From: Diplolepis rosae
Lineage: Eukaryota; Arthropoda; Insecta; Hymenoptera; Diplolepididae
Assembly (NCBI GenBank): GCA_030998225.1
Contig: JAPYXD010000553.1
Coordinates: 1-64,000 of the forward strand
Reading direction: 5' to 3'
Length of the DNA stretch: 64,000 nt
The notes below the pieces were generated by a model that made no database searches, was not told the origin of the DNA, and was given only the letters and a program-made list of their open reading frames with translations. This document shows positions 17,097-60,161 of this stretch, in pieces (the stretch's first letter is position 1; every line of letters starts with the position of its first letter). The translations under genes and the position numbers were made by a program.

Positions 17097-17697
17097 TCTA
17101 TAAATTTAAAAAGAAAGGGATCTAAATTTACTTAACTATACCCTTGATTATATAATTTTTATACTTTATCTATTTAATTCGTGCAAAAGTACCCAAAATT
17201 TGATTCCAACAGAAGTTCTACATTATTGAAAGGTATTCTATTTCTCCATTAGAAAAACAATTCTTATATTACAATACCCTTACAAAAACTGTTCTTCTAA
17301 AGGTACATTCCCAGTGATCATGCTGTGGTTTTATAGTATAGAAAGAGAAGGATGGATTGTACCTGTACCAGGAAGGTTGAAAGGATGGAAAATATGGGTT
17401 TGTATTTGGTTGGATGTGAGAAAGAGGAGAGAAAAAAAGAAATAAAAAAGTAGTAAAAGTCAAGAATTGACAAGGGCTTTAGGTGACACTGGTCAAGAAG
17501 GAAGAAAATTTTATATTGTTTGAGCCATGAAGGTTCTAACGATTAGGGTAATAAAATCCTTAAGAAAACCTGTACGAGTTTCAGCTGGTGTTTGGTATGC
17601 TCGTAAAAAATTTGAAAAGAGGAAATGAAGGAGCCAATGTATTTTAGACTTTTAGTCTTGATATATATTTGGAAGCGAAATAAGATACTAAAGAAAC
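17097..17697. other. Upstream region of the 17698 gene; no gene seen
   Basis: No coding region is supported. A TATA-like run (gatatatattt) lies about 40 bp before the ATG at 17698, weakly compatible with a promoter. Confidence 0.4.
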
Positions 17698-18854
17698 ATG
17701 GAAGAAATTTTTGAATTATTAAATGAAATTGATTTTACTTTGTTGGAATCAAGTGATGTAAATGTTGAAAAGGCTAGTGACTTAATTTCGGATTCGAGTC
17801 GTGATATTAGTGTAAGAAAAAGTAAGGAATCAAGTGATGATGTAGATTTGGAAGGATTATGTGAAGAAGTGATACGAGGTGAATGTGTAGACAGAATTAA
17901 TTTCAGATCTTTGGTAGATGAGTTAGATTCTGGTTTTGAGAACGTTGAATGTCGATCTGAGAGTGACTTAAGGCCAATAATAGAAGAATTGGAGTCAGTG
18001 GGTTTGAAATTTAATGGGAACAGTGGTTTTGACGTTTTTTGTGGAGGGAAAACTGTAAAGTGTCCTTGTGAGTGGAACTCGTTACCTGCGGACAAAAGAA
18101 TTGCCTTGCTTGATGAATTGAGGCAGCAGGTAGCGTTCCATGGGGTTTCTAGAGCTTTTTGCTTAAGAGGGGTATTTTACAATATTGGCAGAGACAATGT
18201 GTTAAAAAGGGTAAGTTGGTTTTGATGGTTTTTTAGATAGTTGCTCATTTTTGAAATAGTATGTAATTTTGTGTATTATTATCAGTTGGATCCTTCGCGA
18301 ATTCGGTGGATGCAGGATGGAAGGCGATTGGTGAGGCCTAATTTCAGGTTAAAACCGAGAATTCGTCTTCCAAAAGAGTGGCAATCCAATCGTCGAATGA
18401 AGATCGAGGATTGGTTGAGGCCATGTAAAAATTCTGGAGAACCTTTTTCTTCTGGGGGAATGAGATGGATAATACATCAGCAGAAAATTTGTCGTGTAAG
18501 TAATAGGAATATATCTTGATAGTTTGTTTGTAAAATTTTGATTGTTCATACACTTTTATCATTCTTTTGTGTTTTTTTTTATAGGTAGGGCCTGAAGATT
18601 TAAAATGGACGGGTCAAAATTCGTCTATTGCAATCAAGGTAAATGATCGTTATATTGATTGTTGTGGGCGAATTTTGCGTATACCCATGGATTGGCTCTA
18701 CGTAAATAGTAGTAGGCTAGTAAAAAGCAAGAAAATTCTTTCGCATGTTATAAGGAATAATATGGAGGATGTTCCTTTCATCATTAAAGAGAAACGATAC
18801 CGCATTATAAATGATGAAGTTGTTGAGGTAATGTATAAAATTATTATTCACTAA
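17698..18854 (+). CDS. Unrecognised three-exon gene, about 330 residues
   Basis: Exons 17698-18210, 18286-18495 and 18585-18854, all phase 0 with good GTAAGT donors and pyrimidine-rich acceptors. Exon 1 encodes an acidic Ser-rich start (MEEIFELLNEIDF) and then a more ordered part with CPCEWNSLPADKR and RAFCLRGVFYNIG. Exon 2 is basic and Trp-rich (RIRWMQDGRR, IRLPKEWQSNRRMKIEDWL). Exon 3 has LKWTGQNSSIAIKVNDRYID and ends at TAA 18852-18854. A possible donor after GAG at 18828 leaves open a fourth exon lost to the repeat at 18897. The frame is intact across three exons, which argues for selection. I do not recognise the family and assign no function. Confidence 0.6.
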
Positions 18855-18896
18855 TTTGTTTAATTTAAAATTGTTTATTTGTTAAAAATAAAAATA

Positions 18897-18990
18897 AAAA
18901 ATCTGCCCGCTTTGCGGGCACATTCTCATCGCACGCGTCGCGCGCAAGTTTGAGCGCGCCTAGGGCGCGCGATTCGATCGTCGTTCTGTG
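18897..18990 (-). repeat. Inverted copy of the GCGCGA dispersed repeat, truncating E1
   Basis: Reads as the complement of about 2745-2875: 'tctgcccgctttgcgggcacattctcatcgc' followed by GCGCG palindromes. It sits between the 3' end of the plus-strand gene and the env gene of element E1, whose last dozen codons are made from this repeat. Confidence 0.8.
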
Positions 18991-20435
18991 ATCGACATAT
19001 TATATAAGAAGGGAGAAATTATTTCAAGAGAAGTGATCGACATACTAAGTGGAATTGAGTTATCCATTATTCTTGGGTAATTTCTAATATTATAGTATGG
19101 AATTGATGAGTCCAAATTACAGTCAGATTCTATTTGTAAAATTCCTATTCCTTGAAGAGTAATAAGGGTTTTGGAATTTTTGGAGCAAGATAAAAAGATT
19201 TGTTTAGGAAGAATAGTTGAATAAAGCCATCCACGGTGTGACAACAGTGGTGTTAAAAAAGGATATTCATTGAAACTTATGAATGTTTTACATTTATACG
19301 GTTGGGATTTTATAAACATTGATGTTTCGCAAATAGGATTATTTTGAGTACTGTATATGGAATGAGGGGGGCGACAAAAATTTTGAAGTCCATTTTGGTG
19401 CCATGAAGCGAGGAAATTTTCATTTGTTGTGAAGTAAGATTCGTTATTTGGAGAAATTGCGATATAAGAAATTTGAGATTTTATGAATATAGGTGTAATA
19501 TAATCAGTATTGAAGTCAAAATGTATTGGGGTTGAATGTGTTTTAAATACTTGAAATTCTTCAGAAGATGGAATTGGTATGGTCATAGTAAAAATTAAGT
19601 AATTTTCGAAAGTAAAGTATCTTATTTTAGAAAATGGAATGGTCATAGAAAAAAGAGACGTTGGAAGGTGAGGGTCTTCTTTGTTAGATTTGAAGTCTAG
19701 GAAGGTATCTGGAAGCAGCATGGGGTGCCATAAATTTGTAGCGGCATGGGTTATAGCTTCCGTAAGTTGTGTTAGGAGTGATAGAAAGGATCGGGATATT
19801 TCATGCAAGTCCATTAGCCAATGTGCTGCAAGAATTCTATAAATGTGCAAATTTGGGTAAATTTGTGATTTATGCCAGTCTTTGTACATCGTAACGTTGT
19901 TGAGATTGGATGAAAGGTTTCCAAGTTTTTCAGAAAATGGGTTTGGAAGTAGGAATAAATTTTCTTTAGGCCAATAAAGAGAAGTTTCTTGTCTTATTTT
20001 TGACTGTAGAAGAGCTTCTTGAATTTGGTGTAAAAATGGATCACTATTTTTGGGAATTTTAGTGATTTTATGAGCTTGTCTGGTTATAACTGAAATTTCT
20101 CCCAGAAAATAATTTATACGTTTTTTCATAAATTCAAGCTGAGTGTGGTGATTATATATATTACAGTTATTTGCAATATTTGTAAGTATACAATGTTCAT
20201 AAAGTTTGTGAGAAATATCTACTATTTTATACTTTAAGTTTTCTGGTTGCAAAATGTCAAAATAAGAGATAAAATTATAATTTTCGGAAAATAGACGTAT
20301 TTTTTAAATTGGTTCAAAATAAATACCAGATGAGTGATAAAATTGTGAATTGATATACAAGTTTTCTGCTTTAGAAGTGAAAAACAGAATTAATATCAAG
20401 TATACGCCAGAAGGTAGTTGGTATAGGAATTTCAT
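18960..20435 (-). pseudogene. E1 env (errantivirus/baculovirus F-like envelope), one stop and truncated C-terminus
   Basis: ATG at 20435 is followed by a hydrophobic signal segment (LPSGVYLILILFF) and the GIYFEPI start typical of gypsy env proteins. An in-frame TAA lies at 20304-20306; the same frame then stays open to 18960. The interior has the Cys pattern and final 'IFLSC ... LITLQGIGILQI ... C' of this envelope class. No furin-like site is obvious. The last residues come from the GCGCGA repeat, so the transmembrane anchor and tail are gone. Such proteins mediate entry in active errantiviruses; this copy is broken. Confidence 0.75.
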
Positions 20436-20445
20436 TATGCTTCTC

Positions 20446-20470
20446 GAATGGCTGAAAAAGAAAAAAGGAT
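20446..20470 (-). promoter_or_regulatory. Splice acceptor upstream of E1 env ATG
   Basis: On the minus strand a TACTAAT branch-site sequence is followed by a pure pyrimidine-rich run and CAG, about a dozen bases before the env ATG at 20435. Gypsy env is made from a spliced RNA, and this layout fits. Confidence 0.6.
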
Positions 20471-20493
20471 TAGTATTGGATAAAATTGGATGT

Positions 20494-21079
20494 TTACATA
20501 TGGTTGGATTTAGGTCTAGAAGTTTTTTGGAAAAAAGGGGAAAATAGATTACTAAATGTTGAGGAGTTTCGTGGTGGAAGTGGAGGGAGAACTTGTGTTG
20601 ATTTATCAGCTTTAAAAACATTCCGTCTACGGCACTCTTTTGTAGCATGCATTTGAGTGTTACAATATCTACATGAATTTTTCCATGATACTAATTTCGG
20701 TCTTGGATCAGTTTGAACACTTTGATTCTTCGTTTTTTTTTGTTTCTTTACATTTATTATTATAAAAATCCTCATCGCAAAGATCATAAGATCTTATTAA
20801 TATTTGTAGTAATTTTAAAGCAGCTCTATTTTCGGCTAACTCGCTTGTAGGACCCGCTTGTACAGCAAAATGATCGTTTGTATTAACTTGAGCAAGAAAA
20901 AATGATTTGGTTTTTGAATTTGGATCAGGACAAACGATGTATTGTGGTAACGGTAATCCATATTTTATCGTAAAATTTCTCAAAATTTCCACGTGGTTTA
21001 AAAGTCCCAGAGAGTCTGTTCTACATATCTTTTTTTTGTAACTTCGCACGTGGGTAGGCTCATCATAGTAATGCTCCAT
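20494..21079 (-). pseudogene. E1 dsRBD-2: dsRNA-binding domain plus CCHC knuckle, frameshift at A9
   Basis: Starts MEHYYDEPTHVRSYKK. Residues about 28-98 fit a dsRBD: EILRNFTIKYGLPLPQY, FFLAQV, then the C-terminal helix SELAENRAALKLLQILI. The frame closes at 20708, while the next frame continues with a CCHC zinc knuckle (CRYCNTQMHATKEC) and a Ser/Pro tail ending at 20494. The switch is near nine consecutive A residues on the coding strand (plus-strand T run at 20733-20741), so it is either a mutation, a sequencing error or slippage. The E3 homologue (57238-57723) has dsRBD and knuckle in one frame. Role inferred: dsRNA binding. Confidence 0.72.
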
Positions 21080-21116
21080 TATAGATGATTTCCTGAATCA
21101 GCATGGAATATTTATA

Positions 21117-21854
21117 TTAGAATTTATTGTACTGATTGGGGGGTCTATATCCGCATTTAAAACATTTCTTAAAGCTTTTTCCAGAAAAAGGCGATGTAGT
21201 AGAAATATTATTTCTTTTTATTTTATAAGGATTTATATTTGTAAAACGATTGTTATTGGATGTATTAGATTTTGTTATCTCACCACTTGTTGAAGGTCTT
21301 GGATCATTTATGGGTGATTCTTGGATTGTAACAGGTAAATGTTCTAGTGAGTTTATTAAATTTACTTCACATTTTTTATCTTTTTGCAAAAGAGAATTTA
21401 TCATCTTTATAGCTGCGAAATCCTTTGCTGTTTTTATTGTGTTTGCAATTCCTATTCGTTTAATATCATTAATAAAACAGATTGCTATGTATGTTGAGTC
21501 TTTTGATGAGGTTTTTAATCGTAATACTGTATATTTTGGATACTCAAATTTATTTTGAGTGCAAATTTCGTTTAATTTTTTGCAATTTTTACTAATAGAA
21601 TTTGGTTGGACGTTTTGATTTGTTTCCTTTGATTCATTAATCAAGGCGTTATATAAATTTTGTGCTACCTTTTGTGTTACAATTTCTTTATCTTTGCCAC
21701 TATTCATTATTATATAATTTTTATATTGTAAGTTAACGTGAAATAAACATTCATTATTATTGGTTTGTTCAATGAGTATCTCGTAAATGAGGGGTCGATC
21801 TCCTCTTTGTTGAATAATTTTGTTTAGTAAAGTTGTAATAGGAACATGCGACAT
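21117..21854 (-). CDS. E1 dsRBD-1: protein with two dsRBD-like segments
   Basis: 245 residues, intact. Residues about 5-72 (LLNKIIQQRGDRPLIYEIL ... VTQKVAQNLYNALI) have the alpha-beta-beta-beta-alpha pattern of a dsRBD. A second such segment is at about 92-165 (LNEICTQNKFEYPKYTVLR ... TAKDFAAIKMINSLL). The C-terminus has CFKCGY, part of a zinc-binding motif. The ATG lies about 10 bp after the stop of the glycoprotein ORF, so they may share an RNA or arise by alternative splicing. dsRBD proteins of viruses often sequester dsRNA from Dicer; that role here is an inference. Matching basic KK residues before the last helix are weak, so binding is uncertain. Confidence 0.7.
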   Translation of the reverse strand: MSHVPITTLLNKIIQQRGDRPLIYEILIEQTNNNECLFHVNLQYKNYIIMNSGKDKEIVTQKVAQNLYNALINESKETNQNVQPNSISKNCKKLNEICTQNKFEYPKYTVLRLKTSSKDSTYIAICFINDIKRIGIANTIKTAKDFAAIKMINSLLQKDKKCEVNLINSLEHLPVTIQESPINDPRPSTSGEITKSNTSNNNRFTNINPYKIKRNNISTTSPFSGKSFKKCFKCGYRPPNQYNKF

Positions 21855-21864
21855 TTTTAAGATG

Positions 21865-23168
21865 TTAGATTTGAATTGAATAATGTGATCTACTAAGTTC
21901 TTCTTTTAGTTCAGAGTGAGGATAAAGAGTAGTTTTCGTACTATTATGATCTTTACCTGAATTGGTATTTTCGTTATGAGATGAACTTTTAGTTTCCTCT
22001 ATAGAGTTTTGTGGTGCTGAAGCTGTAAGCAGTGGTTGATGGCTCTCAGCGGGAGGTCCAGCAGGTCGGTGGTACCTAAGTGTAACAAAAGGTTAGTGAC
22101 CGAATCCCAGAAGGCGCCTAGTAAATGGAGAGACCATCCAAATAATCTATGTAATGCATAACCATGAATAATATATATTTACTTCAGTGCGTATGTGTCG
22201 TTCTACATATATAAATTTAGAGTTGACGTATGTGAAAATGTCCATATTTTGAACTTCTAAATGTTTATTTTCTAAAAATGAATTCCCAGGTCTGGTTTCA
22301 AAAATTAATAATTTTGGATGTTCAGTTTGTATTAAAACGTAACTGCAAACTGGTTTTCTTGTTTTTTCAGCCAGTACGAAGGTTATATCTTCAGTCGTTA
22401 AAGAATAAAAGGTTTCAGAATTGTCTGTCGTATTGTCATATGTTTTATTTGTTGGTCCTTCATAAATAATTTCATATTTGTTAAAATTACATACGTCATT
22501 AGGTAATGTATCCCAGAATGTTTGTCCATATTCTACGTCTGTACAGAATGTGTCTGAAAGTGTGCATATTATTCCTATCCTAATTGAATTTTATTTGAAT
22601 TTGAATGAATAGTCGCGTAATGTTCTTGTAAAGTTATTTTGAATATTGCTTGGACTACGACATTATTCCATGTTCCATATGGGTCAGAAAATTGTGTACC
22701 AGTACAGTCTCCGTTAGGTGTTACAGAACCTGCTAAAGTAACGCTATGAAATGAAGTTTCATTTACTTTTTACTTTGATATCTGAAGAGAAGGGGTTACT
22801 AAAAATGTTCCTATTGTGTGCATTTGATTACATTGATCTCGTGTAACATCATGTATATATTCACTGTGGCCATTTGCAACTATGGAACTGTGAGAATGCA
22901 TACCACAATGAGAGATGGCGCGTCGAATTTCTATTTTGCATTGTATTACTTTTGTATTTGAAAATCCAGTTAATTGTAAAAGTTGTATATAAACTCTTTC
23001 AACATGTACTTGAGATCGAGGTAGATCACATTCTCCTACCTCTAGTAAAGATAATGTCGTAATATTTGATTGATTTGAACCGCAATCGAATCCTATGATG
23101 GCGTAGACTGTTGTTATTTAGTTGAATTTGCAAATGAGCAGTGCCAAAAGGAAGCCTCGTAATCCCAT
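21865..23168 (-). pseudogene. Chuvirus-like glycoprotein remnant (endogenous viral or captured env)
   Basis: From ATG 23168, two bases after a CTTTTTCCAG acceptor, comes a signal-like MGLRGFLLALLIC, an early in-frame stop, and then IIGFDCGS, LSLLEVGECDLP, CGMHSHSS and MHTIGTF, which I recognise as the N-terminal ectodomain of glycoproteins of Chuviridae and of related env genes captured by insect retrotransposons. Around 22560-22220 follows TFWDTLPNDVCNF ... EHPKLLIFETRPG. A further stop is near 22775 and a reading change occurs before 22560. Most of the C-terminal ectodomain and the membrane span are deleted; a tail (RYHRPAGPPAESHQPLLTA) ends at 21865. Non-functional as it stands. Confidence 0.75.
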
Positions 23169-23309
23169 CTCTGGAAAAAGGAGGTTCCAATTAGCAGCTT
23201 GCTTTGTAAAAAAAAGAATTAATAAAATTACTTGATAAACAATTTTGTTGTTACTATTATATATATATATTTTTTTTATGATATTTATTAAGTTTTTTAT
23301 TTTATATAC

Positions 23310-23591
23310 TTAGTCTATAATATCCAATGTGTCAGCTATGACACTATGATCTGATAGGCGTAAACTGATAATCAAGTTTTTGTATGCGTCTGGTCCTCTT
23401 GTTTTGATTGTTGAAAAAATGTCTTTTATTGTATCTGGATTGTTTAGGTTTTTGCTCCAAGTGGGAATATTACAGTCGTCTTGGTTAAAAATTCCAGTTT
23501 GAATTAAGTATGGCCAGAGAGCTACCATGTCGTTAAAACAGGGAACTATTTCAATGAGATCATCTATGCGTTTGCGATGAATTTGATCCAT
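23310..23591 (-). CDS. CARD-only protein, 93 residues
   Basis: Intact ORF starting MDQIHRKRIDDLIEI. The predicted helices follow a caspase-recruitment domain: FNDMVALWPYLIQTGIF (helix 2), a short helix 3, NPDTIKDIFSTIKTRG (helix 4), then PDAYKNLIISLRLSD (helix 5) and a last helix. The RGP-(K/D/T)AY motif between helices 4 and 5 is a CARD hallmark, and the closest family I can name is the initiator-caspase (Dronc/caspase-9) CARD. Nothing follows the domain, so it lacks a protease. A TTATTCCAG acceptor lies just before the ATG. CARD-only proteins can act as decoys for apoptosome assembly; here that is inference. It sits between pol and the glycoprotein of E1 on the same strand. Confidence 0.72.
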   Translation of the reverse strand: MDQIHRKRIDDLIEIVPCFNDMVALWPYLIQTGIFNQDDCNIPTWSKNLNNPDTIKDIFSTIKTRGPDAYKNLIISLRLSDHSVIADTLDIID

Positions 23592-23661
23592 TATATCTGG
23601 AATAATGTGTTATGTATATATTTTTTATATAAAATATATATTTTTATATAAATTTTATATA

Positions 23662-24505
23662 CACTACCGTCGGAAATTGTGCGCACGGTGCTTGTAATCG
23701 CTATCAAAAATCACTGCTGACTTTGAACCCGATATCTCGGTGAAAAAAAGAGATAGGGCATTTTTAAAAATACAGTTTAAAAAAAAATATTTATTGTTAT
23801 TTGTGATTATTAAAAATTATTTAAATCCAATATTATCCCCATATTAACGAATAGAACAATGATATGTAAAAATTTTTTATTTCTTAAAATTCTTATAAAC
23901 TAGAACATTAATAAAAATTTTAATAGTCATTGTAAATATCAACTAAGAATAAAAGGAAAGGAAATAAAGGAAACACGTTCTTGGATCAAAGAACATATAA
24001 GAGAGCTCTAATTAAGCGCCACCTTTGTGCGTGGCCTATTCGGTCCTGCCTCAACGAAGGAGGTTAGCAAGAAACCGGCCGAGAAGTGTGATCGTCGATT
24101 AAAATTCAACTCAGATATGATTGAACATTTTTAATCGTATCTCGGGTACCCATGAATATTTTTTAAGTTTTCTTCGCTTAAATTAAAGATAAGATTTTAG
24201 ACTTTATATTGTATAACTTTCAGATATTGAAAAAATTTTTCCTAGGTCATGCAAAAAGTTGAAGTTGAGGTAGAGAATTTGAGAAAATCTTGAATTTTTT
24301 TTTTACTTCCTCACGTGCTGTATTATTTTCAGAAAGTCAAAAAAATATTTATTGAGCATCACTAGACGTGGAATTACATAAGTTTTTCAACTGTATTTTT
24401 AAAAATGCACTATCTCTTATTTTCACCGAGATATCGTGGTTCAAAGTCAGCAGTGATTTTTGATAGCGATTACAAGCACCGTGCGCACAATTTCCGACGG
24501 TAGTG
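23662..24505. mobile_element. Tc1/mariner-type MITE after E1 integrase
   Basis: 844 bp with inverted ends CACTACCGTCGGAAATTGTG on both sides, complementary over about 120 bp, flanked by TA (23660-23661 and 24506-24507). No transposase frame. Inserted between the CARD ORF and the integrase end. Confidence 0.88.
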
Positions 24506-24638
24506 TATGTATATTTTATTTTTTATTTTTACCATTTATCGACAAAATAAAATTTCTATATTTTATTTAAATTGTATATGTATACATATTTTTTATAATT
24601 AAAGTAAAGATATTTTTTTTTTTTTTTTTTTTATTTAT

Positions 24639-26940
24639 CTACGTTTGTACTTGTACGTGTGAGCGTTTTAGTCTATTAATGTGAACTACAGTAGGTTTGC
24701 CTTTATAGCTTATTTTGACATTCCCTTTTCCTAACACTTCCAATATTTCATAAGGCCCTGTATAATGGTTCTCTAGTTTTTTTATTTTACCTCCTTTTAA
24801 TATAAATACGTTGTCTCCAATTTTTACTTCTAAAGGATTTATTTTTTTATCATAATATATTTTCGATTTTTCTTTTGCTGAAATAAGATTCTTTCTTGCT
24901 TGTGTTCGCATTTCGTGCAGTTGAGTTACGAAATTAATTAAATAATCATCATACGTTTGTAATTTTTCTTGTCGTGATAAAGGTTCGCTGGAAGGTTCAC
25001 GAGCTAATTTACCAAAAACCAATTCATAGGGTGTGCATTTTGTGCCTTCATGTACACTAGTATTATACGAGAACATTGCTAGTTCAAGCCAATCATCCCA
25101 TTCTGAATTTTTTGCAACAAATTGTTTGAGATATTCTCCTAAAACATGATGTGAACGTTCTAATGACCCGTTTGATTGGGGGTGAAAAGCTGTGGTACGA
25201 AATTGTTTAATTCTAAAACGTTTTGCCAATATTTTTAATAAATTACTTAAAAAATCTCTGCCTTGGTCAGGAAGTACTCCTTTTGGTGATCCAAATATGC
25301 AAATAAATTTTTTCACAAAAGCATCTGCTATTGTACTAGCTTGGTTATTAGGAAGAGGTATTGCTAAAGAATATTTGGTAAAATTGTCTTGTATCGTTAG
25401 AATATATAAGTTAGCAGATTTTGTTTCAGGTAGTGGACCAACAATGTCCATTGATATTTTTTCAAAAGCAGTAGTGGGTGTGTCTGTGATTACCATAGGA
25501 TTTTTTGTTTTGACTCTGATTAATTTTTTCAGTTGACATTGTAAACAGCCTTGAATATATTTTTGAATGTCTACTTTCATATTTTCCCAACAAAAATTTT
25601 GGCGAATTCGGCTATAAGTTTTTGTAACGCCTTTATGGCCTCCTAATGCCGAAGAATGAGCTTCTTCAATTAAATGAGTTCGTTGCTCCTTTGTTGGATA
25701 TTGCGTTATTCCATTGCAAACTATAATTTTTGTAGTTGAATTTGAAAAAATTGAATTGAAAATTGATTTCACTTCTTCCCAAGGTATATGATAAATTCTG
25801 AAAGTTTTTGAAATACTAATTGATCGTAATTTAAATTTTTGAGAGAATTCGTGTAATGCGTGAATTGATAATTTCATATTATTTAAAGTTTCTGATAAAT
25901 TGTCCTTAGTTTCTTCTTCAATTGGAAGTGCAAAATGGTAGTAGTTTCCTTTTTTAATATCTTTTGCTATTCCCTTATGTAAATTTTTAAATTTTGGTAA
26001 TGTTTCACGTTTTTCTAAAGTTTTTGATCCGTTGTCGCGAGGAGTTCCATTTGTTGTAACAAAGTATGCATAATTATCTTTTCGCATAGTTAATTGATCG
26101 CGACATTCAACTAAATTTTTCCTTGTTATAATTTTTTCTGTTTGAGAGTTTATAGGAGGAGGTTCTGGGGGTGGACGATTATAATTATCATGATCTTTAT
26201 CGAATTTTTCACAATTTATATGAGATCTTTGGTTTAATCTCAAATTTTCTTCAAAATAAGGCTCTTCAAATTCTTCTTCCAATTTTTCTTCTTGGTTTTC
26301 ATCAAACTTCTCTTCAAAATTTTCCTCAAGATTGTCTTCAAAATTTTCTTCAGAATTCTGTTCGAAATTCTTTTCAAAATCGTCTTCAAGATCATCTTCA
26401 AAATTCTCTTCCCAATTTTCTTCATAATTTTCTCCATCATTTCCTTCGTGTGAGGTTTCAATGTCGTTGATTTCATCTTCTGATGTTGAGAAATAATTTT
26501 CACTGTCATCACTTTCGAATTCATTAATATTTTTTTGCTTTTTGGCATTCTTCTTTTTTGTGTTTCTTGCTTGAGCTTGTTTTAAATAATCTGAATAATA
26601 CGGATCAGAGTCGGAATCTGATTCTACTTTTGTTCGGCTTCCCATTTGCATATTTATTTCTGGTAATTCGTTTTCAAATATTTGTTTTCTTGGCCTACCT
26701 CGTGATTTTTTCACAAGAGGTTTAGAAGAAAAATTTTCGTCTAATTTTTCTTGAGTTTCATTTCGATTCATATTTTTTGCTTTATCTTGCTCTATTCTCT
26801 TTTGAGCTCTTGTAGTAATAGTTTTCCATGATAAATTTTCGTATTTTTTGGAAAACATTGGACTTAATAAAAATATTGTCATAAAAATAAGTCTTGAAGC
26901 CATATTTTTGAATAAATTTGTGTATTTTAAAATATCCTTA
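24639..26940 (-). CDS. E1 pol C-terminal part: charged linker, macro-like region, integrase
   Basis: ORF of 754 residues (24639-26903). Residues ~1-250 are a disordered, highly acidic linker with imperfect ENFEDNLEENFEEKF-type repeats. Residues ~270-400 form a macro-like region (DNYAYFVTTNGTPRDNG, YYHFALPIEEE, RSISISKT, IPWEEVKSIF). Then the integrase H2C2 finger (HLIEEAH, GGHKGV, CLQCQ), catalytic residues at MDIVGPLPE, VLPDQGRDF and SNGSLERSHH, and a C-terminal YTGPYEI module. The link to the RNase H part at about 26927-26940 involves a frame change. Integrase joins element DNA to the genome. Confidence 0.85.
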
Positions 26941-28026
26941 CCAATCTCACTAAATGATTCTTCACTAAGGAATTCTTGTAAAAATTCTGGAATTTTTTGT
27001 CAATATTTAATATTTGGGCTTCTGGAATTTCGCTAAAATGATCTACGTCGTCTGGTACCATTCCTGGATTCAAGTTTTTTCGTTTTAAAGGTCTTACCTC
27101 ATTTTTAGAGTTTTCTTGTTTATTTCTTGTAAAAGTTTTCTTGGAAAACGTTTTTTCTTGAGAAGTCATGAAAGTATCATTGTCATCAACTTGTAAATAT
27201 TTTGATTTTTCCTGGCTATCATCAATAGGGTTTCTTGAGAGAGCATCTGCATTTACATTCATTTTTCCTGCTTTGTAAATTACATCAAAATCATATTCTG
27301 CGAGTTTTAATCTCCAACGTGAAACTCGTGAACAAGGGTCTTTAGAATTTTGAAACCAAACTATAGGTTTGTGATCAGTCACTAAAGTAAATCTTCTTCC
27401 ATACAAATAAGGACGAAAATGAGTTACACAAAATATTATAGCAAGAGCTTCTTTTTCATATGTATCATATTTTTTCTCAGTATCACTTAGACTACGTGAA
27501 GCATATGCTATTGGTTTATCTTTACCTATTTTACCTTGTGATAAAATACCTCCTATTGCAAATCCTGAGGCATCTGTTGTGAGTATAAAGGGTTGAGAGA
27601 AATCAGGTCGTTGTAAAAGTGGTTCTTCACATAACTTTGCTTTTAAAATATTGAAAGCTGCTTGTTGTTTTTCTGTGCAATTAAAAGGTATATCTTTTTT
27701 CAGAAGTTGATTTAAAGGACTTGCAATTTTTGAAAATCCATCAATAAATCGTCTATAATATCCTGCTAAGCCTAAAAATTGTTTAACATTTTTCTGTGTT
27801 TTTGGAACTGGAAAGTTTTTTACAGCTATTATCTTTTTTGGATCTGGACGTACTCCATTTTTATCAATTATATGACCTAAATATCCTACTTCAGGTCGTC
27901 AAAATTCGCATTTGTCTGGTTGTAAGTGAAGATTTGCTTTTCTAAGTCTTTCTGCTAAATTGTTGAATTTAATTTCGTGCTCTTCTAGAGTATTTGCATA
28001 TATAACTATGTCATCAAGATATACAA
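26927..28026 (-). pseudogene. E1 RT C-terminal part and RNase H
   Basis: Begins inside the RT active site: YLDDIVIYANTLEEHEI directly after the solo LTR, then the RT thumb, a nonsense codon at 27899-27901 (after KCEF), RNase H motifs (TTDASGFAIGGILSQ, EKEALAIIF, YGRRFTLVTDHKP) and DALSRNPI. It ends at 26927 with a low-complexity tail. The upstream half is at 29855-30432. Split by the LTR insertion and carrying a stop, hence inactive. Confidence 0.88.
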
Positions 28027-28239
28027 TGTTACGTTCCGAGCTAAGGCTAGGGTAGGTTGGGAAAATTAGAAGAGGGAGGAAAGTTTGCTGATTAAATCAG
28101 AGTGGTAAATTCTGATTATTTATATTTTTGTGGGATCGTGGTCACTAGTCAAACCTATGCGGCTCGAGTTGTTCACAATAATAACAAATTTGATTATATT
28201 GCGGTGTACAAGCTTTATTAATTAAAAGATAGGTATACA

Positions 28240-28598
28240 ATAAGTTTTGAGATGCTTATGTGTATGACTTATACTACTTCTCAGGATGAGAAGGCAATAT
28301 TAAGGGTTTTATGCGTTTATGAGTTAGTAATACAGGTTTTGATATGCCTATATATGTAACACACGCATTAAAAGTGTGCGTCTATATAAGTCAATAATAC
28401 AGGTTTTGAGATGCCTATATATGTGACTTCCGCGTTTAAGAGTGTGCGTCTACAAGTTATTAATACAAGTTTTGAGATGCCTATATATGTAACTTGTACG
28501 TTTTATGCAAATATACTAGGTTTTGAGATGCCTAGGTATACAACTCACGCACTACAATTGGCGTTATAGTTAATATAATAAGTTTTGAGATGCTTATT
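28240..28598 (-). repeat. Six-hairpin array in the solo LTR
   Basis: Six hairpins share the loop ttttgagatg (plus strand; one variant ttttgatatg) with differing arms. Positions: 28240-28259 (ATAAG/CTTAT), 28330-28353 and 28397-28420 (TACAGG/CCTATA, one mismatch), about 28464-28486 (weak), 28516-28535 (CTAGG/CCTAG), 28577-28598 (AATAAG/CTTATT). Spacing is 50-90 bp. The matching E3 LTR hairpins are at 48368-48506. Confidence 0.85.
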
Positions 28599-29100
28599 TA
28601 TATAACTTACGCTTTTTCCTTGCTTGAGAAGGCAAGAGAAAGAGTTTTGTCGTATATTTCTCCTTGTTGATAGCTGGATAACGGCACAATCCTGGCTGGA
28701 GTTAAGTAGTGCTAGTCAAGTAGTACAGGAAGCGTATCAGACAATCCAACTTGCTTGCTTAACACTGGTTAAGTTCGTTTTCTGTAGATTTAACTCTCAG
28801 AACTCGACTTAATACGACGATACACGTATTTAACGGCACTTATTAATTCACGACCGCCGGACTTGCACCACTTAAGGACCAGGGATTTTATTTACCAAGT
28901 ACCGAGGTATTCCTTGTGTAAGATACCGATTTACGAATATCGAAGGGTCAATTCGTGACACCGACAGTATGACTTGCGGACGGAGTGATTACCGACGTTA
29001 AGATCTTGAAGACTGAACAGCTACTAGCGAAAAGACAACCTCCAGAGGTAAATCTGGGGTTTATATATTATTGATTATTCCCATAGTGGGAGAGTGTCTG

Positions 29101-29181
29101 CTAATTTGTAGATCGGCACGTACGTTGCTAATTTGTAGATCGGCACGTACAGTGATAATTTGTTGATCGGCACGCGTCTGG
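29101..29181 (-). repeat. Three tandem 27-bp units in the solo LTR
   Basis: Units 29101-29127, 29128-29154 and 29155-29181, each (c/a)taatttgtagatcggcac plus nine bases. The E3 LTR has three 27-bp units at the matching place (47675-47755) with clearly diverged sequence. Confidence 0.85.
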
Positions 29182-29854
29182 CGGCAATGTCGATGACCAT
29201 GCTTGCTGACAGTCGCGGAAACTCGTGAACTCGCGGCTAGTTCTCACGCAGGTCATACTATCGGGATCAAAGTCCATTGATGCTCGGTGCGGTATATCTT
29301 TCTCTCGTCTTTTCAGCTATGTTACTTAATATGTATATGTTGACAGGTCGGTGCAATTGTACTAGGTCATAATTGCACTGACTCATCTATTATTTTACAA
29401 CTTGGTTTATATTCTTATAATATTTATGAAGTACATGAATTTTTGGTGTTTATATTCTAAAATATTATTCAAGCTAATTTGGGGATCCCCAATAATGTGA
29501 TTGATATTATTGATTGATTATCCATTATTGGTTATCGCTGATTATTATGTGCTATTGTTTGATTATTATTACCAATCATTTAATGGCTGTTCTTAACAAT
29601 AATGAAAATTATTGTTATTTTTATTAAATAATTATTAATTTTTTATTGGCTTGGTTCTCTACATTACCGACGGTAAGGTAGTTTTCCTATTTTATGCAAT
29701 TCAACTGCCTTGTCGATCTCAGGTAATTATCCTATCGACAAGTAGTTATCATCGCAGTGATGTGCTTTACGTTCGTCAATCGCCTGGTTATATGCCGGGT
29801 TGCCTTGCTGTAGGCGCGATTTTAAATTTTTATTAATTTTTTTGGGATGTAACA

Positions 29855-30432
29855 ACAAAAAGTTCCGTTCCGATTAATCCAGTTAATGTTAAATCCATTA
29901 ATCTCTGAAATGTGGCTGGTGCAGTTTGTAAACCGAAAGGCATTCTATCGAATTCGTAATGACCGTGAGGTGTGGAAAATGCGGTTTTATGAGAGTCTTT
30001 TGGGTCCATTTTTATATGGTGAAAACCGGTAGCTAAATCAAACACTGAAAAATATTTTGCTGATCCTAGAGAATCAAGTATATCGTTTATATTAGGTAAA
30101 GGATACGAATCGCCAATTGTTTTTTCATTTAATTTACGAAAATCAAGAACCATTCCCCATTTTATTTTTCCTTGGGAATCAGGTTTTTTAGGAACTATCC
30201 ACACTGGAGTGTTATATGGTGATTGTGAGGGCTTGATTATTTTATTTATTAATAATTCATCGACTTGTCTTGTAATTTCTTCCTTGTGAACTGGGGGAAA
30301 TCTATATTGTCTTGAAAAAATTGGAGCGTCATCTACAGTAGGAATTGAATGTTGTAATACATTAGTAGCTTCAAGTGGTTCTCCTGGGATTTGAAATCTG
30401 TCTGCATTATTTTTAATTAATTTTTCTACATG
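29855..30432 (-). pseudogene. E1 RT N-terminal part
   Basis: Open from 30432 to the LTR junction: HVEKLIKNNADRF, YRFPPVHKEEI, PVWIVPKKPDSQGK, VLDFRKLNEKTIGDSYPLP, FSVFDLATGFH (the first catalytic Asp) and FGLQTAPATFQRLMD, ending at ELFV where the solo LTR begins. Preceded by an in-frame TAA (30433-30435). Typical Ty3/gypsy RT fingers and palm. Confidence 0.9.
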
Positions 30433-31230
30433 TTAATATTCATCTTGATTTAAGTGGTCTAATCGAAGATGTTTTTTAATACATTCTACTCTGTCTTCGC
30501 CTGTTACATTATAAAATTTGCATGAGTTAATTAGAGAATTGTCAGTTTTTAAAAAGTTATTTAATATTTTACTTGATAAATCTTCGTTATTTGTTTGTTT
30601 GAAATTAATTAAATTTTCAATTTGTTTATAACATTCTTGTTCTTCAAAGTCTTCTAAATTAACTAATGGAACGGATAATGTAATTGGGATTTCATTTGTG
30701 TTTGCAAATTTTAAATAAGCTTTTCCTCTGTGATTTTTTACAACTGCGTCACCTACGTAGACGCCATCTTGGATATGTAATCGAGGTACATACCCTTCAC
30801 TCTTTTCCATATTTTTTATATTAACATAAAATGTTGTAACTGTTCGAGCTGGAATAGTAAATGTATTGGTAGATTTAAAAGGGTAACAGTGGTTCTCAAT
30901 TTCTAAGCATTTTGAAGTATAGTTTATATTCACACTATTATCTTGAAAAAATTCTGATCCTAATACTCCATCTTCTTCTACTGGGACTTCATTGGGAATA
31001 ATGTTAAATATCGTTGGATAACCAAAAATGTTTATTTTTACCTGTCCTAACGTGCAATGTGGTAAATCATTAATTCCTGTAAGTTTCAATACGTTTTGGC
31101 TATTTATGGGTAGTTCAGGGTTGAGAACCTTTTGTTTAATTAAATTTCGAGTTGATGGAATTGAAGTGGACTTCGAAATATTTATTGTTGTTGTTGTATG
31201 ATCGTTAGAAGTGGATGCCAGTGGTTCTCG
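30433..31230 (-). pseudogene. E1 protease region of pol, lacking the catalytic DTG
   Basis: Reads in the -1 frame relative to gag from about 31250. The retropepsin-like part has STRNLIKQKVLN, where the DTG-x-x-NLIK motif is expected but no Asp-Thr-Gly is present, then LGQVKINIFGYPTIF and GVLGSEFF. Next is the spacer ending HLRLDHLNQDEY at the TAA of 30433-30435. Protease would mature Gag and Pol. Loss of the active site marks this copy as defective. Confidence 0.75.
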
Positions 31231-31232
31231 AT

Positions 31233-33104
31233 TTATGCTTTCCTCAGTGCACCCATGCTGGGGAGAGCTTTGGAGTTTTCCTGATTAGCTGTTTGTGATT
31301 GGTTATTTGGTCGTATTTTGCAGTCTCGTACTAAATGACCGGGTTGTTTACAGTAATTGCAAATTATTTCAGTATAATTTGAATTTTGTTGAGTGTTATT
31401 ATTTTGTAAAAATCTATTTTCATATGGTTTATTTCGATTTTGAAACTGTCCTGAGTTAAAGTTTTTATACTGTCCTGGATTCAATTGTCTATTAGTATTA
31501 TTAACATTATTGTTATTATTGTAAAAATTTCGAGGAAAATTATTATTATTGTTGTATCTTTGTGGTAAAAAATTATTATTATTGTTTCTATAATTGTTAT
31601 TTCTATTTTGTAAAAAATGATTGTTGTTATTATTAAAATTATAATTTTTATTTCTTAAAAAATTGTTATTTGGAAAATTATTGTAATTGTTTTTTGCAAA
31701 GTTATTATTATTATTACTTCTTTGACCATTGAAATTTCTATATCCTTGTTGGTTAGGATGCAAAAATTTTTTTTGTTTATTATTAAGAACTGCATCTTGA
31801 GCTTTACTTAAATGAAAACATTTTTCAGTTGTGTGACCTGGTTTTTTACAAATTAAACAAATAGTTTTATTTTCAAGTGCTACGTTGAATCGGGTGGTTT
31901 TATTATTTTTATTATTATTAGTTGATTCTTCGGTTTTTAAATAATCAGTATTTTTATTTCTTCGCAGTGCAGAACTTGCAGCCAATCTTCGTTCTATGTC
32001 TATTGTATCATTAATTACTTCCTTAAATGTGTCCTTTTCTTCCACACGAATTTCTAACTCAGGACGCAAACCGCGTATAAAACATTGAATTACATCTCTT
32101 TCTAAATTTTGTTTAAAAGCATTATCTACTTGACCGTCATTATTAAGTCTGTGAGCATCTTCTATTCTATCAGCAATTTCTTTAATTCTAGCAGCATAGG
32201 AAAGGACATTTTCTCTTTCCCACATAAATGTATTACCTAATTCTCCCTGCAATTGATATACGCTTTTCGCAGGGGCATATACTCTTTTCAATTTTTCTAT
32301 TAATTCCTCTATTGTTGCATACGTTGACCCAAAAATACATTTTCCTGCCTCACTAGACAATTTACCTCTCAATAGACGTGCAAAATTTTCTTGGGCAGCA
32401 GGTGTCGGCAGCATTGCCTTTGCTTCCATGCAACCCTCAATAAAATGGGACAATGGGAGGTTACTTCCGACGAACAAAGGGACCACCTCTAGCGCGTCGC
32501 GTAAGGATACCTGCTGGCTGTTAGGTATGGCTACGGCCATCTCTTCGTTGCTTGCTATTACGGGATTATCCTGATTTATGACTTCTGTATCGCTTTTGTC
32601 GTCGTCGCTATCGTTGTTACTAATTAGAGAGTCGCGTGCCAATGAGGTTTTCAATTTTTCTTTCAAAGTTCTTTTTTCTATTGTTATTACCGTTGAGCTT
32701 AGCAAATTAGATCCGTCAAAATAAGATAACTCGTTCGTTAAAGTATGATCTTGATTACTAGATCCTGTCACAATGCTCAAATCTGGACAGAAACTTGAAT
32801 GAAATCCGCTAGTATTACTAGAATTTTCACTTGATATGGTTTGATCATTAATTAGAGTCTTGTCGAAACGTGAATCGTCTAGCTGAAGAGTGTTATCTAA
32901 TTCCTGTTCAGCAGAAAAAGTGTTTGAAATATCCTTGTATTTATTATAATCGACTAAATTTTCTTTGATTTTACCTGATCTTTTCATTTCCACGGAATCT
33001 ATTTGATTCTGATCGACAATTTTTGCGAGTTGATTGTCTTGTTTTGCTTTACTACGCGTAATAACTTTTTGGGCGGATTCTACAGGGGTATTTGAATTTG
33101 ACAT
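31233..33104 (-). CDS. E1 gag with two CCHC knuckles and an Asn-rich region
   Basis: 623 residues, intact, from ATG 33104. Residues ~1-195 are acidic and Ser-rich. Residues ~200-375 are the capsid (SLRDALEVVPLFVGSN, IEELIEKLKRVYAP, VIQCFIRGLRPELE). A zinc knuckle CLICKKPGHTTEKC is at ~420. A ~120-residue Asn-rich block (NNNNNF, NNNFLRNKNYN) follows, then a second knuckle CNYCKQPGHLVRDC near the end. Two knuckles separated by an Asn-rich, prion-like stretch is unusual. Pol follows in the -1 frame. Forms particles and packages RNA in active elements. Confidence 0.9.
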   Translation of the reverse strand: MSNSNTPVESAQKVITRSKAKQDNQLAKIVDQNQIDSVEMKRSGKIKENLVDYNKYKDISNTFSAEQELDNTLQLDDSRFDKTLINDQTISSENSSNTSGFHSSFCPDLSIVTGSSNQDHTLTNELSYFDGSNLLSSTVITIEKRTLKEKLKTSLARDSLISNNDSDDDKSDTEVINQDNPVIASNEEMAVAIPNSQQVSLRDALEVVPLFVGSNLPLSHFIEGCMEAKAMLPTPAAQENFARLLRGKLSSEAGKCIFGSTYATIEELIEKLKRVYAPAKSVYQLQGELGNTFMWERENVLSYAARIKEIADRIEDAHRLNNDGQVDNAFKQNLERDVIQCFIRGLRPELEIRVEEKDTFKEVINDTIDIERRLAASSALRRNKNTDYLKTEESTNNNKNNKTTRFNVALENKTICLICKKPGHTTEKCFHLSKAQDAVLNNKQKKFLHPNQQGYRNFNGQRSNNNNNFAKNNYNNFPNNNFLRNKNYNFNNNNNHFLQNRNNNYRNNNNNFLPQRYNNNNNFPRNFYNNNNNVNNTNRQLNPGQYKNFNSGQFQNRNKPYENRFLQNNNTQQNSNYTEIICNYCKQPGHLVRDCKIRPNNQSQTANQENSKALPSMGALRKA

Positions 33105-33162
33105 TGAGTCATTATAAATTTACAGTTTCTTTTTGTTGAGCGTTATCTTAGATTATTTATTG

Positions 33163-34385: not shown

Positions 34386-34495
34386 TAACAAATCTATTTT
34401 ATTGAAATTTCAAGTTACACGTTGAAATAATATTTCATAATCATTTATTTATTCACTAGAAATAATCAATGTGTTAATTTTCAATTGACTTGTGT

Positions 34496-34514
34496 TTCCC
34501 GGGCCGATGCACCA
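34496..34514 (-). promoter_or_regulatory. E1 primer-binding site, tRNA-Gly type
   Basis: The plus strand reads TTCCCGGGCCGATGCACCA, the 3' end of an insect tRNA-Gly including CCA, with one extra G. The minus strand is thus complementary to that tRNA. It lies 14 bases from the LTR end, a longer gap than usual. Confidence 0.75.
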
Positions 34515-34528
34515 GAAAGAAGGAAGTA

Positions 34529-35368
34529 TGTTACGACACAAGTACGCAAATATACTTACTTTGATCGAAGATTCCTCGTTTTAAGTTAGGATCGAACGAT
34601 CCTCGCTTAGGGATGAGGATAAGTCAATGAAAGACACAATGATTATGAAAATAATACAAATTGAATTTATTTTACTGGTTAAAATTTCCGGATATACATT
34701 CGTTAAGACAATTCTTATATAATGTAGGCACAGGCTGGTTGGTACGTAGGTGAGAAAGAGACAAAGAATAAAGATAGAGAGAGAGAGGTTCGGTACCTTT
34801 ATGTTGAGGGTTAATCCACACGGCGGTGAGTAGTAAATACTGGATCCCCACAGGTGTAGTCCAAGTGTGTGAGAGAGACGGAGTTATAGGCCGCACAGGT
34901 ATATTCCGTAAAGGGCGGTGATCCAAATTTATGACACTGTTCGAAGATATTTACAAAGATCTATACAAGTCCACGATGATTTTTACGACTCCCGAACTTT
35001 GATTTTAAATTGTCCCGGTTGAATTTTATTAATCTCAAACTCAGAGATTTTCGAAGTTAAATTGAAATGCCGCACTGGACTATTGTCGCGAGACCGGTTA
35101 TAAATCCGAAGGAAAATTTAAGTGTCGAACTAGACGAAGAATTTACTGACTGCTTGCTCTTGGTGTGGGCCTCTTTTATATTTTTTTATACAAATTGACG
35201 GTCAGCGAAAATCGTGACGTAGACATATCTTCTTAGAGGAGAAGGGGCCCTATACTGCTCCCTACTTCCCCTACTCCCTATTCCCCTTTATCGATTTTCT
35301 CATAGATTTCTTAACTCAATCCAGCCTGTGTGTATTATATAAATTCAAATATGTCGCGGGACGTGACA
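34529..35368 (-). mobile_element. E1 5' LTR
   Basis: 840 bp; plus strand begins TGTTACGACAC and ends GGACGTGACA. A second LTR of the family is at 40441-41349; both share cctcgttttaagttaggatc, gatcctcgcttagggatgag and the end tcgcgggacgtgaca. No partner LTR is found at the 3' side of E1 in this window. Confidence 0.85.
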
Positions 35369-57237: not shown

Positions 57238-57723
57238 TTAGAGGAGCTGGCGGCAGAATACGGCTTTACAAAACCAAAATACACGTTAGAGGAAACCGCG
57301 GGAACCGACAACGCAAAAATTTTCGTCATTAAGTGCGAAGTTGAAGACCGTAGACGCGAGAATAAATTTAGTACCATAAGCAATGGGGAAAGAAAAATAC
57401 GTAGCGCAGAACATGAGGCCGCAAGAAAAATGTTAACGGCCCTTGAAAAAATGTATTTTTTTAGCGAGGAAAAAAATGATTGTAACATTAGGGATGATCA
57501 GTACGTTATTTGTATGGACAACCCCGCGACTTTATTAATCAAATTGTACAAATGGGAAGCCTGCTGCGAATACTGTTATTTGAGGGGCCATACTATGGCA
57601 AATTGTAAAAAGCAAATTAAACGAAACAAGCGGCTTCCCGACGATCAGGAACCAAATAAAGAAGACTTCTGGGGCCCTCCACAAGGGGATGAAAATACAA
57701 ATCTTATCTATCTGACGCCCTAG
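57238..57723 (+). CDS. E3 dsRBD plus CCHC zinc-knuckle protein
   Basis: 161 codons open after a TAG at 57235-57237. Residues ~1-70: ELAAEYGFTKPKYTLEET, KIFVIKCEV, then KIRSAEHEAARKMLTALEKM, a dsRBD pattern with a conserved basic-Ala helix. CCEYCYLRGHTMANC is a CCHC knuckle near residue 110. Same domain order as E1 dsRBD-2. No ATG is visible at the front; an upstream exon or the in-frame ATG at 57430 (which would drop the dsRBD) are alternatives, so the 5' end is uncertain and the TAG may be a lesion. The predicted action is RNA binding, perhaps shielding element dsRNA. Confidence 0.72.
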   Translation, partial: LEELAAEYGFTKPKYTLEETAGTDNAKIFVIKCEVEDRRRENKFSTISNGERKIRSAEHEAARKMLTALEKMYFFSEEKNDCNIRDDQYVICMDNPATLLIKLYKWEACCEYCYLRGHTMANCKKQIKRNKRLPDDQEPNKEDFWGPPQGDENTNLIYLTP

Positions 57724-58388
57724 AGAAGTCTTCCTTCAATAGAAAATCCATAGAATACAACTTTATTAATTTTATTATTATTATATATGTTTATTTATTT
57801 ATATATTTATTATTATGTTTTGTTATCCTTCGAGTCATAAAACTATATATTATAGGATTACCGAAGTATAATTAGTTAGCATTACCCATGATTCATACCA
57901 TATATCACTACTAGTATTATATAGATTTATTCTCAGATACACATTACAACTAGATTAGGCGTACATTACCATTATACCAATGTACAAATTATATTATACC
58001 CATCTATACAAACTTTGTAAAATAAATTTGAAAGAGTTTAAACATAAAATGTTCAAGCAGTAATTCAAATCCCAAAACACCTATAGTATTTGATAAAATT
58101 TGTGCAATTGATTGGTAGCCTCAAAACTCATCAACTATTTCATATTCTTATATATAATTATATCACTTTTATATTTAATAATTTTTTTTTTTTTTTTGTT
58201 TCACGTCGGCATATTCTGAGTTCATAAAAATAAGGGAATAAAGAAATCAAGGGAGAGGATATGGAGGTTGCCTTATTCTTTCTTCCCTTATCAACACAAC
58301 AACGTAACAAAAGATAACATCCCTGATAAAAAATTAATAAAATTCTAACACAAACCTTACTTTTGTAGACAAGTAGACAAGCAACAGG
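57724..58388. other. E3 spacer before env; splice acceptor at its end
   Basis: No gene. A TTACTTTTGTAG acceptor-like sequence ends at about 58368, some 20 bases before the env ATG at 58389, compatible with a spliced env RNA. Confidence 0.5.
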
Positions 58389-60161
58389 ATGATTGCCCAG
58401 ATACTAGGCCAAGCAACAATGATCTGTACAGGAATACTACTCATCATAACAGGCACGTCGGGAAACTCACAAAACTACGAAATCCAACCATTCAATAACA
58501 ACCCAGGACTATTCTACGAAAAATTGGAAAATATCCGCACTACTCAAAACCATTGGAGGTTTGTTATATTCATGGACCCCCAAAAACCACAGGAACATAT
58601 TCAATTCGACAGAATAAAATCAGAAATTCAGGAAATCTACAAGACATGCCCAAATCGATTGAAAAGTACTAATTGCAAAGAAATGATAAAATTGGATCGC
58701 CTCAATGAAAAGCTACACCAACTCAAAACTATAAGTGAGGATTTAAGTACAATAATAATGGAATTACACCAGGACATACCCCATGAAATAATTCCACCCA
58801 GGACCATGCATAGACGAAGAGCACCTCTTCTATGATTCATAGGCAGCATTCTAGGACCAGTAATAGGAGTCATGACTGCCGACGATGCAGATGAATACAA
58901 CGAAGCAATAAATGATATTTATGAGAAGCAAAATAACATCAGTAAAATAATTGGAAAACAAACCCACATAATAAAAGCAGAAGTGAATAATATTGACCAA
59001 GATTTAAACAAGAAAACTAACCAAATTCAAATCCTTCAAAAAGAATTAAATGAAATTATCACCAAAATAGAATCGCAAGGACAATACTGGAATGATTACA
59101 TGTATTATGAAAAAATGATGCAATGGTCAGCACATTTGGAACTAAAATTGGAAAGTTTATATGAAATAATAAAAAAATTCATTAAAATAACAGAATACGC
59201 ACGAGAAGGCAAATTACACCCTTCGACAATTTCCAAAGCCCAACTACAAGAAGTAATTACTGAAATACACACAAAAATGGAAGATTGCGAATTTCCGATT
59301 CCTACTTCACACGCTAGAGTGGAATTACTTTCACAAATTGGCAAGACAGACCTGAAAATTAAATCTGGAAAATTACTAATATCAGTAGACATTCCATTGC
59401 TAGATAGAAAAGCACTACAATTATATAAAATTTACCCATTTCCTGTGTTCCAAGACATTTCAGGAAATTACACAAGAGCTATCTACATTTTGCCAAGAAA
59501 ACAATATATTGCCCTGACAGAAGACGAAAGAAAATTCTTTTATGCAGATAAAGAGTACTATGACACCTGCCAGAAAACAATCTATCACACAATTTGCGAA
59601 AACATCCAACCAATACACGAAACAGTCACAACAACGTCCTGCGAATGTCAAATGCTCACAGGCCCTTCAATGGAAATTTTAAAGCCATTTGATATAAGAA
59701 TAAACACAGAAAATTCAGTTTTTTGGAAGCATATTCCATCCTTAAACGCATGGATATTTTCAACTAAAAAACTAGAGCCAATCAGCATCACCTGCAAAAA
59801 GGGAAAAACAGAAAAGGATAAAAAATTTAAAAATCTGCATACGGAAGAATCACTCTCTCCCATAGAAGAACAACTTCTCAAAATGGAAAACAATCATTAT
59901 AGACATAAACTAACCCAAAAATATTGGTTAGGAGGGTCCAGTATCCTAACCTTATTAACAATAACAACAGTAATATACCTCACACAAGAAATAATCCGTA
60001 AAAACTGTAAAATCTGTAATAATAAAAATATAAACATAAAAGAAAACCTAGAGGAAGTAGAACTACAACCCCTTTCGGTAGACAACCAAACAAACACAGA
60101 AGAAATTCATCCCCTCCAGAGAGTATTAACAATCCCAACAGCAAATGTTAGAATTGCATAA
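58389..60161 (+). pseudogene. E3 env (errantivirus/baculovirus F-like), one in-frame TGA
   Basis: ATG 58389; signal-like MIAQILGQATMICTGILLII, then PGLFYEKLENI typical of gypsy env starts. A basic HRRRAPLL furin-type site is followed by a TGA at 58833-58835, after which the same frame continues with a hydrophobic fusion-peptide-like stretch (IGSILGPVIGVM), heptad-rich helices, the Cys region (CQKTIYHTICENI, CECQMLTGP), a transmembrane span (SSILTLLTITTVIYLT) and a short tail to 60161. In active relatives the protein fuses membranes. One nonsense codon at the cleavage/fusion boundary separates the two subunits here. Confidence 0.85.

Follow-up and report, generated by a model that had tools for sequence, protein, structure and literature searches.

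In complex retroviruses such as lentiviruses and deltaretroviruses, accessory genes lie between pol and env. Descriptions of insect retroviruses list gag, pol and env only, and in the accessible part of one of them env-F is the third open reading frame (ORF) of insect endogenous retroviruses (ERVs) (PMC12992720). A gypsy element with five genes behind pol, including a CARD and two fusion proteins unrelated to each other, would show that genomes like those of complex retroviruses arose independently in invertebrates. The element in question here, E1, lies on the minus strand of a 64,000-nucleotide stretch from Diplolepis rosae (contig JAPYXD010000553.1, positions 1 to 64,000), which as a whole is called the window in the following. 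We consider it likely that E1 is one decayed copy of an envelope-carrying, errantivirus-like Ty3/gypsy element present in multiple copies, and that its 3′ half is a true accessory block with genes for a CARD protein, a chuvirus-like glycoprotein (G), two proteins with double-stranded RNA-binding domains (dsRBD1 and, with a zinc knuckle, dsRBD2) and an F-type env. As part of this reading, and with the same confidence, G is regarded as a captured chuvirus-type fusion glycoprotein that belongs to the block. Among the matches listed in the literature search, CARD or dsRBD genes were not seen in any long terminal repeat (LTR) element, and no such element combined the two kinds of fusion protein. 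The survey most relevant here, by Chary and Hayashi (2025) and reportedly on gypsy elements that carry type III fusion glycoproteins, lies outside the scope of that search. The novelty of a gypsy element combining CARD, dsRBDs and two envelopes is provisional.

E1 shares with the errantiviruses (gypsy, ZAM and 17.6; Metaviridae) a gag gene, the order of reverse transcriptase (RT), RNase H and integrase, and a Baculo_F env downstream of them. With complex retroviruses it has accessory genes between pol and env in common, probably expressed via alternative splicing; the genes are, however, unrelated, and splicing in E1 is a prediction. The pol domain order of E1 (RVT_1, RT_RNaseH and RT_RNaseH_2, Integrase_H2C2, rve) is identical in BEL/Pao elements. 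Its pol pieces match RT_RNaseH, RT_RNaseH_2 and Integrase_H2C2, domains which we take to be associated with gypsy, and no model that we take to be specific for BEL/Pao turned up, a pattern that leans away from BEL/Pao. In contrast, Anakin, a mosquito element with a chuvirus glycoprotein, belongs to BEL/Pao, and the accessible part of its description mentions no CARD, dsRBD or F-type env (PMC7642597). What it shares with E1, according to the same text, is a chuvirus-type glycoprotein which an LTR element captured behind its integrase and which was amplified along with that element. From the insect ERVs, as far as the available text describes them, E1 differs by four extra genes between pol and env (PMC12992720). 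PMC13172572 mentions gypsy elements whose envelope is a type III fusion protein, a feature that they share with E1; in the accessible part of this source, no element was seen that combines a type III glycoprotein with an F-type env or that has a CARD or dsRBD.

Chuvirus-type glycoprotein genes are also known as endogenous viral elements (EVEs). According to the accessible parts of the two sources, glycoprotein EVEs of Jingchuvirales in Hymenoptera lie near gypsy fragments with no clear evidence of capture (PMC10084718), and the 224 Mono-Chu glycoprotein EVEs of ants fall into clades without close exogenous relatives (PMC6540820). The many glycoprotein gene copies are a feature which both sets share with the E1 family, and for the former the closeness to gypsy sequence is another one. 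The junctions within the E1 family offer a gypsy capture that may apply to the EVEs of PMC10084718, the likeness being one of glycoprotein type. Chuvirus-type glycoprotein EVEs, such as those of ants (PMC6540820), may be gypsy cargo, the capture which the authors, in the text available, sought without clear evidence (PMC10084718).

Behind the E1 integrase, which ends at 24642, ORF and Pfam evidence places CARD, G, dsRBD1, dsRBD2 with its zinc knuckle and the F-type env on the minus strand, which confirms both the presence and the order of the five genes named in the initial annotation. Its description as five ORFs in a row, directly after the integrase, was too simple. The five genes do share one strand, but only CARD and dsRBD1 are intact, whereas G, dsRBD2 and env are broken, and about 1 kb intervenes between integrase and CARD. 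Most of it is an 872-bp element with terminal inverted repeats (23648..24519; repeats of 137 columns, 95% alike). This is probably a dispersed element without relation to E1, because the end of P0079, a relative covering dsRBD1 and dsRBD2, matches its inverted repeat. Within the block, about 140 bases separate the CARD stop from the G ATG, 10 the G stop from the dsRBD1 ATG, about 40 dsRBD1 from dsRBD2, and about 60 the stop of the knuckle frame from the env ATG. As the centre of G is gone, env is cut off and no LTR pair was found (33.1-37.0 kb against 12-19 kb yielded short, low-complexity or dispersed matches only), E1 in the window is a fossil copy; other copies hold less damaged versions of single genes. 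With no 3′ LTR found, the place of the block before it cannot be demonstrated in the window copy.

The linkage of the genes was followed in other copies of the family. Protein database searches, which see only proteins of 0.55-1.75 times the query length so that a full-length intact G could not appear, yielded 51 CARD relatives, of which 45 show 78-92% identity, one 76% and five 57-67%; 29 relatives of dsRBD1 (48-90%); and 55 of a single piece of G, 49 of them with at least 65% identity and six with 49-58%. All 135 were compared with the separate E1 pieces (80 + 55). Owing to deletions and frameshifts in many copies, some predicted proteins read from one E1 gene into the next. Sixteen of the first 80 matched more than one piece; six of these (P0052, P0057, P0058, P0059, P0065 and P0074) were dropped, being cross-matches between the two dsRBDs, and the other ten are joined products. 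Integrase and CARD are joined in P0040, P0043 and P0051, CARD and G in P0026, P0044 and P0048 (P0026 and P0044 cross the leader DNA of G in another frame), and integrase and G in P0134, the integrase part of which is Glu-rich. On the other side of the block, dsRBD1 and dsRBD2 are joined in P0066, P0078, P0079 and P0080, and P0066 continues from dsRBD2 into env. All eleven joined proteins retain the gene order of E1. Since these junctions recur in other copies, the idea that the block is unrelated flanking DNA was rejected, and the initial interpretation is supported in part, with the evidence in favour of true linkage: the block is not found once only amid unrelated flanks, as other contigs join integrase, CARD and G as well as dsRBD1, dsRBD2 and env in order. 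The relatives come from short public contigs, so that single joins may be assembly errors, and the copies may stem from one host group. No relative was confirmed in viral_contigs (searched with G3, integrase, CARD, G1 and the CARD and dsRBD1 alignments) or in genome_contigs of bacteria and archaea (CARD alignment).

Some results speak against a functional five-gene block. None of the 135 relatives contains the joint between G and dsRBD1, which is bridged in the window only. Furthermore, four of the 51 CARD relatives (P0030, P0033, P0045 and P0050) end in 24-30 residues without a match in the window, so the neighbours known from E1 are not seen in every copy. Finally, a selection test on the conservativeness of amino-acid changes gave no signal for CARD, dsRBD1 or G3 (46, 24 and 47 relatives, respectively, after a 70% identity cut). 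Functional claims therefore rest on recurrence and layout.

The G gene (21868..23168, minus strand) is in pieces and its centre is deleted. Monjiviricetes_fusion (PF24664) matches four separate pieces (3.1e-39, 1.3e-18, 4.2e-46 and 1.2e-10), which cover positions 19-121, 132-194, 194-331 and 571-601 of the 653 profile positions; about 331-571 are missing in the window. Relatives have kept the centre, with P0121 covering profile positions 269-456 and P0096 235-409. The last six residues of the window G tail, HYSIQI, also end P0128 (seen by eye, as they are too short for BLAST), which places this shared G end, in the window, 10 bases upstream of the dsRBD1 start. Six G relatives at 49-58% identity (P0098, P0100, P0108, P0125, P0131 and P0132) form a more distant second group, which may derive from other hosts or other elements.

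The CARD ORF (23313..23591, minus strand) is intact, with 93 codons from its ATG. The window sequence matches Pfam CARD with an E-value of 4.7e-4 and 20.6 bits, under the curated cut-off of 23.9, and 25 of 43 family members match it at E ≤ 0.1 (best 1.3e-5). The predicted model shows the six-helix death fold, and its structural relatives include MAVS CARD filaments. A PDB sequence search with the ORF and its profile returned no CARD, the matches being designed repeats, a major capsid protein (E 0.46), influenza PB2 and cyclin.

The intact dsRBD1 ORF (21120..21854, minus strand) has 245 codons with a CFKC near its end, matches dsrm with 3.6e-11 and shares its ORF end with P0052, P0053 and P0054. 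It may hold two dsRBDs: its relative P0053 contains two dsrm stretches, although the N-terminal part of the window ORF alone reaches only an E-value of 0.067. As a single sequence it matched R2D2 in the PDB search with E 0.02; with the family profile there was no PDB match and R2D2 was lost, and the fold model was useless (predicted local distance difference test score 36). dsRBD2 and its CCHC knuckle (20497..21079, minus strand; knuckle at 20673) occupy two frames in the window copy, and the dsrm match (0.0018, 19.3 bits) lies under the cut-off of 23. P0080 switches from the frame of dsRBD2 to that of the knuckle and stops at the first Cys. Downstream of these genes, the F-type env (18963..20435, minus strand; Baculo_F 6e-13) is interrupted by a single in-frame stop close to its start and lacks its 3′ end. 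Its coding region breaks at 18.98 kb, at the start of a repeat which recurs at 2787-2876 (92%).

A second element of the window, E3, is encoded on the plus strand with gag at 51171-52310 and pol at 52181-57208. An ORF for a dsRBD and a CCHC knuckle (57238..57720; dsrm 1.7e-5, knuckle at 57565) follows its integrase, and then an F-type env in two ORFs (58377..60158; Baculo_F 4.1e-10 and 4.2e-21). This is in agreement with the earlier view of E3 as a reduced version with dsRBD, then env. E1 and E3 are related at 38% identity over 476 columns (E1 integrase ORF against E3 pol) and at 20% over 218 columns for env (4e-10). The knuckle CX2CX4HX4C follows both the E1 dsRBD2 and the E3 dsRBD; only four occurrences exist in the six frames of the window, the remaining two being in the E1 gag. 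Close sequence homology among the dsRBDs was considered and dropped (BLASTP E-values: dsRBD1 and E3, 9.6; dsRBD1 and dsRBD2, 4e-4; dsRBD2 and E3, 0.002). We infer that the dsRBD-knuckle gene is an old gene of the E1/E3 lineage and that CARD and G were added in the E1 line; their loss in E3 is equally possible. The E3 dsRBD occupies its ORF from the very first residue, and no ATG precedes it; its start codon may come from a spliced leader, or the gene may be cut. A comparison of 47.0-51.2 kb with 60.1-64.0 kb for an E3 LTR pair gave short, low-complexity or dispersed matches only.

C/T-rich CAG sites before several ATGs of the E1 block were noticed while reading and scored later, so that the P values below are after the fact. 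The acceptor model was a simple one with approximate frequencies, applied to the 254 AG sites over 18700-25000. The site 16 nt before the env ATG (20452..20453, minus strand) ranks first, also with the region's own base composition, that 2 nt before the G ATG (23171..23172) second (fifth with own composition) and that 13 nt before the dsRBD2 ATG (21093..21094) fourth (third). Seven AG sites lie at most 20 nt upstream of the five starts, and three of them are among the top five (hypergeometric P 1.3e-4), indeed among the top four (5.1e-5). The mean acceptor score of the five starts also exceeds that of five random ATGs out of the 95 in the region (P 0.005). By pyrimidine count among 118 sites, env (12/12) and G (10/12) stand out; dsRBD2 (8/12, with 25 sites as good) and CARD (7/12, with 45 as good) do not. 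The CARD site (23597) reaches rank 26 or 38 only, and no AG lies in the 25 nt upstream of dsRBD1. For the E3 env, the acceptor-like site ranks 7 of 208. A splice-donor-like GTAAGTAT (34552..34559, minus strand), one of two donor-like matches in 30400-35200, lies 45 bases upstream of the candidate primer-binding site of E1. Judged from sequence, these signals are suggestive of separate, alternatively spliced mRNAs for the accessory genes.

The genes of the block would be transcribed from the 5′ LTR, with one leader donor and separate acceptors before CARD, G, dsRBD2 and env, and dsRBD1 would be translated off the G message by a restart 10 bases past the G stop. For the proteins, analogies suggest possible roles. 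The 93-aa CARD-only protein could compete for the CARD of Ark or Dronc, block apoptosome assembly and delay cell death, a proposal modelled on the anti-apoptotic vCARD of a grouper iridovirus (91 aa), which, in the accessible part of its description, is likewise a CARD-only viral protein of about 90 aa (PMC4457926). vCARD comes from a fish DNA virus, and the two were compared by description only. The dsRBD proteins could shield double-stranded RNA of the element from Dicer-2 and RNA interference (RNAi), or else act as RNA chaperones or aid RNA packaging. G and env might provide two cell-entry routes, or, in some family members, G may have taken over the envelope role from env. The gene set, initially called defence-related, may by these analogies be better read as counter-defence. 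A bolder idea, which we hold only tentatively and would not expect to prove correct in full, is that the E1 lineage represents complex retroviruses of insects, derived from gypsy, with two fusion proteins that stem from different groups of viruses, a CARD-only death inhibitor, two dsRNA-binding counter-defence proteins and separately spliced mRNAs, and that this lineage, not repeated chuvirus infection, is the source of many chuvirus glycoprotein fossils in ant and other insect genomes.

A different function is conceivable for part of the block and would be compatible with the accessory block as such. The dsRBD-knuckle proteins might be structural RNA-binding, nucleocapsid-like helpers and the CARD-like domain a filament-forming assembly domain, which would fit the CCHC knuckle, like that of the gag nucleocapsid, behind the E1 dsRBD2 and E3 dsRBD as well as the MAVS CARD filaments among the structural relatives. 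The weak match of dsRBD1 to R2D2 leans towards RNAi factors instead, though the family profile lost it, and we regard the structural role as rather unlikely. Chance capture, in which CARD and G are an EVE fragment which inserted into a single gypsy copy and was then amplified as passive cargo with no function for the element, appears unlikely to a higher degree. It agrees with the lack of a selection signal and, in the accessible parts of the sources, with the richness of ant genomes in Mono-Chu glycoprotein EVEs but few other genes of those viruses (PMC6540820) and with the hymenopteran jingchuvirus glycoprotein EVEs flanked by gypsy fragments, for which capture is not clear (PMC10084718). 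However, an acceptor-like site immediately precedes G, a simple pattern classes 22 of the 51 CARD relatives as apparently full length (in a predicted-protein search that favours intact ORFs), and amplification together with the integrase means that an active element carried the genes. Improbable most of all is a mosaic, in which an integrase-CARD-G gypsy element and a dsRBD-dsRBD-env element were fused at this locus by recombination or nested insertion and the five genes never belonged to one element: each half is linked in other copies while the two are joined by G and dsRBD1 in none of the 135 relatives, and two different fusion proteins would be redundant within one element, yet the joint would have to fall precisely into the 10-base gap between the G stop and the dsRBD1 start, P0128 shares the G tail end, and E3 places dsRBD and env behind a gypsy integrase.

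Upstream of the accessory block, E1 has a candidate primer-binding site (34496..34514, minus strand), which we take to resemble the complement of a tRNA-Gly 3′ end. Its 19-mer has one match in the window and none in 100 shuffles, a result that speaks for uniqueness only; Rfam and tRNA scans gave no match. The gag ORF (31236..33119, minus strand) contains CCHC zinc knuckles (zf-CCHC 3e-4; CX2CX4HX4C at 31859 and 31361). The first part of pol with the RT start consists of two adjacent ORFs (29836..31284, minus strand), with RVT_1 matching 29836-30432 (9.9e-18) and nothing significant in Pfam for the ORF at 30436-31284. An insertion of about 1.8 kb with approximate borders (28027-29830, minus strand), recognized by the interrupted match between E1 and E3, splits the RT, and parts of it align to an inverted stretch at 47775-48818. 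RNase H and integrase follow at 24642..27898 on the minus strand (ORFs 26930-27898 and 24642-26999; RT_RNaseH 1.4e-38, Integrase_H2C2 3.5e-20, rve 2.6e-10).

Just past the cut end of E1, a run of ORFs is found on the plus strand (17692-18854), the first of which (17692-18222) has MEEIFELLNEIDF near its start and no Pfam match. Further away, at 9325-10368 on the plus strand, a unit of about 270 bases is present four times in tandem. Each copy starts with a T tract and CAG, and the unit has the appearance of a gene exon repeated together with an intron.

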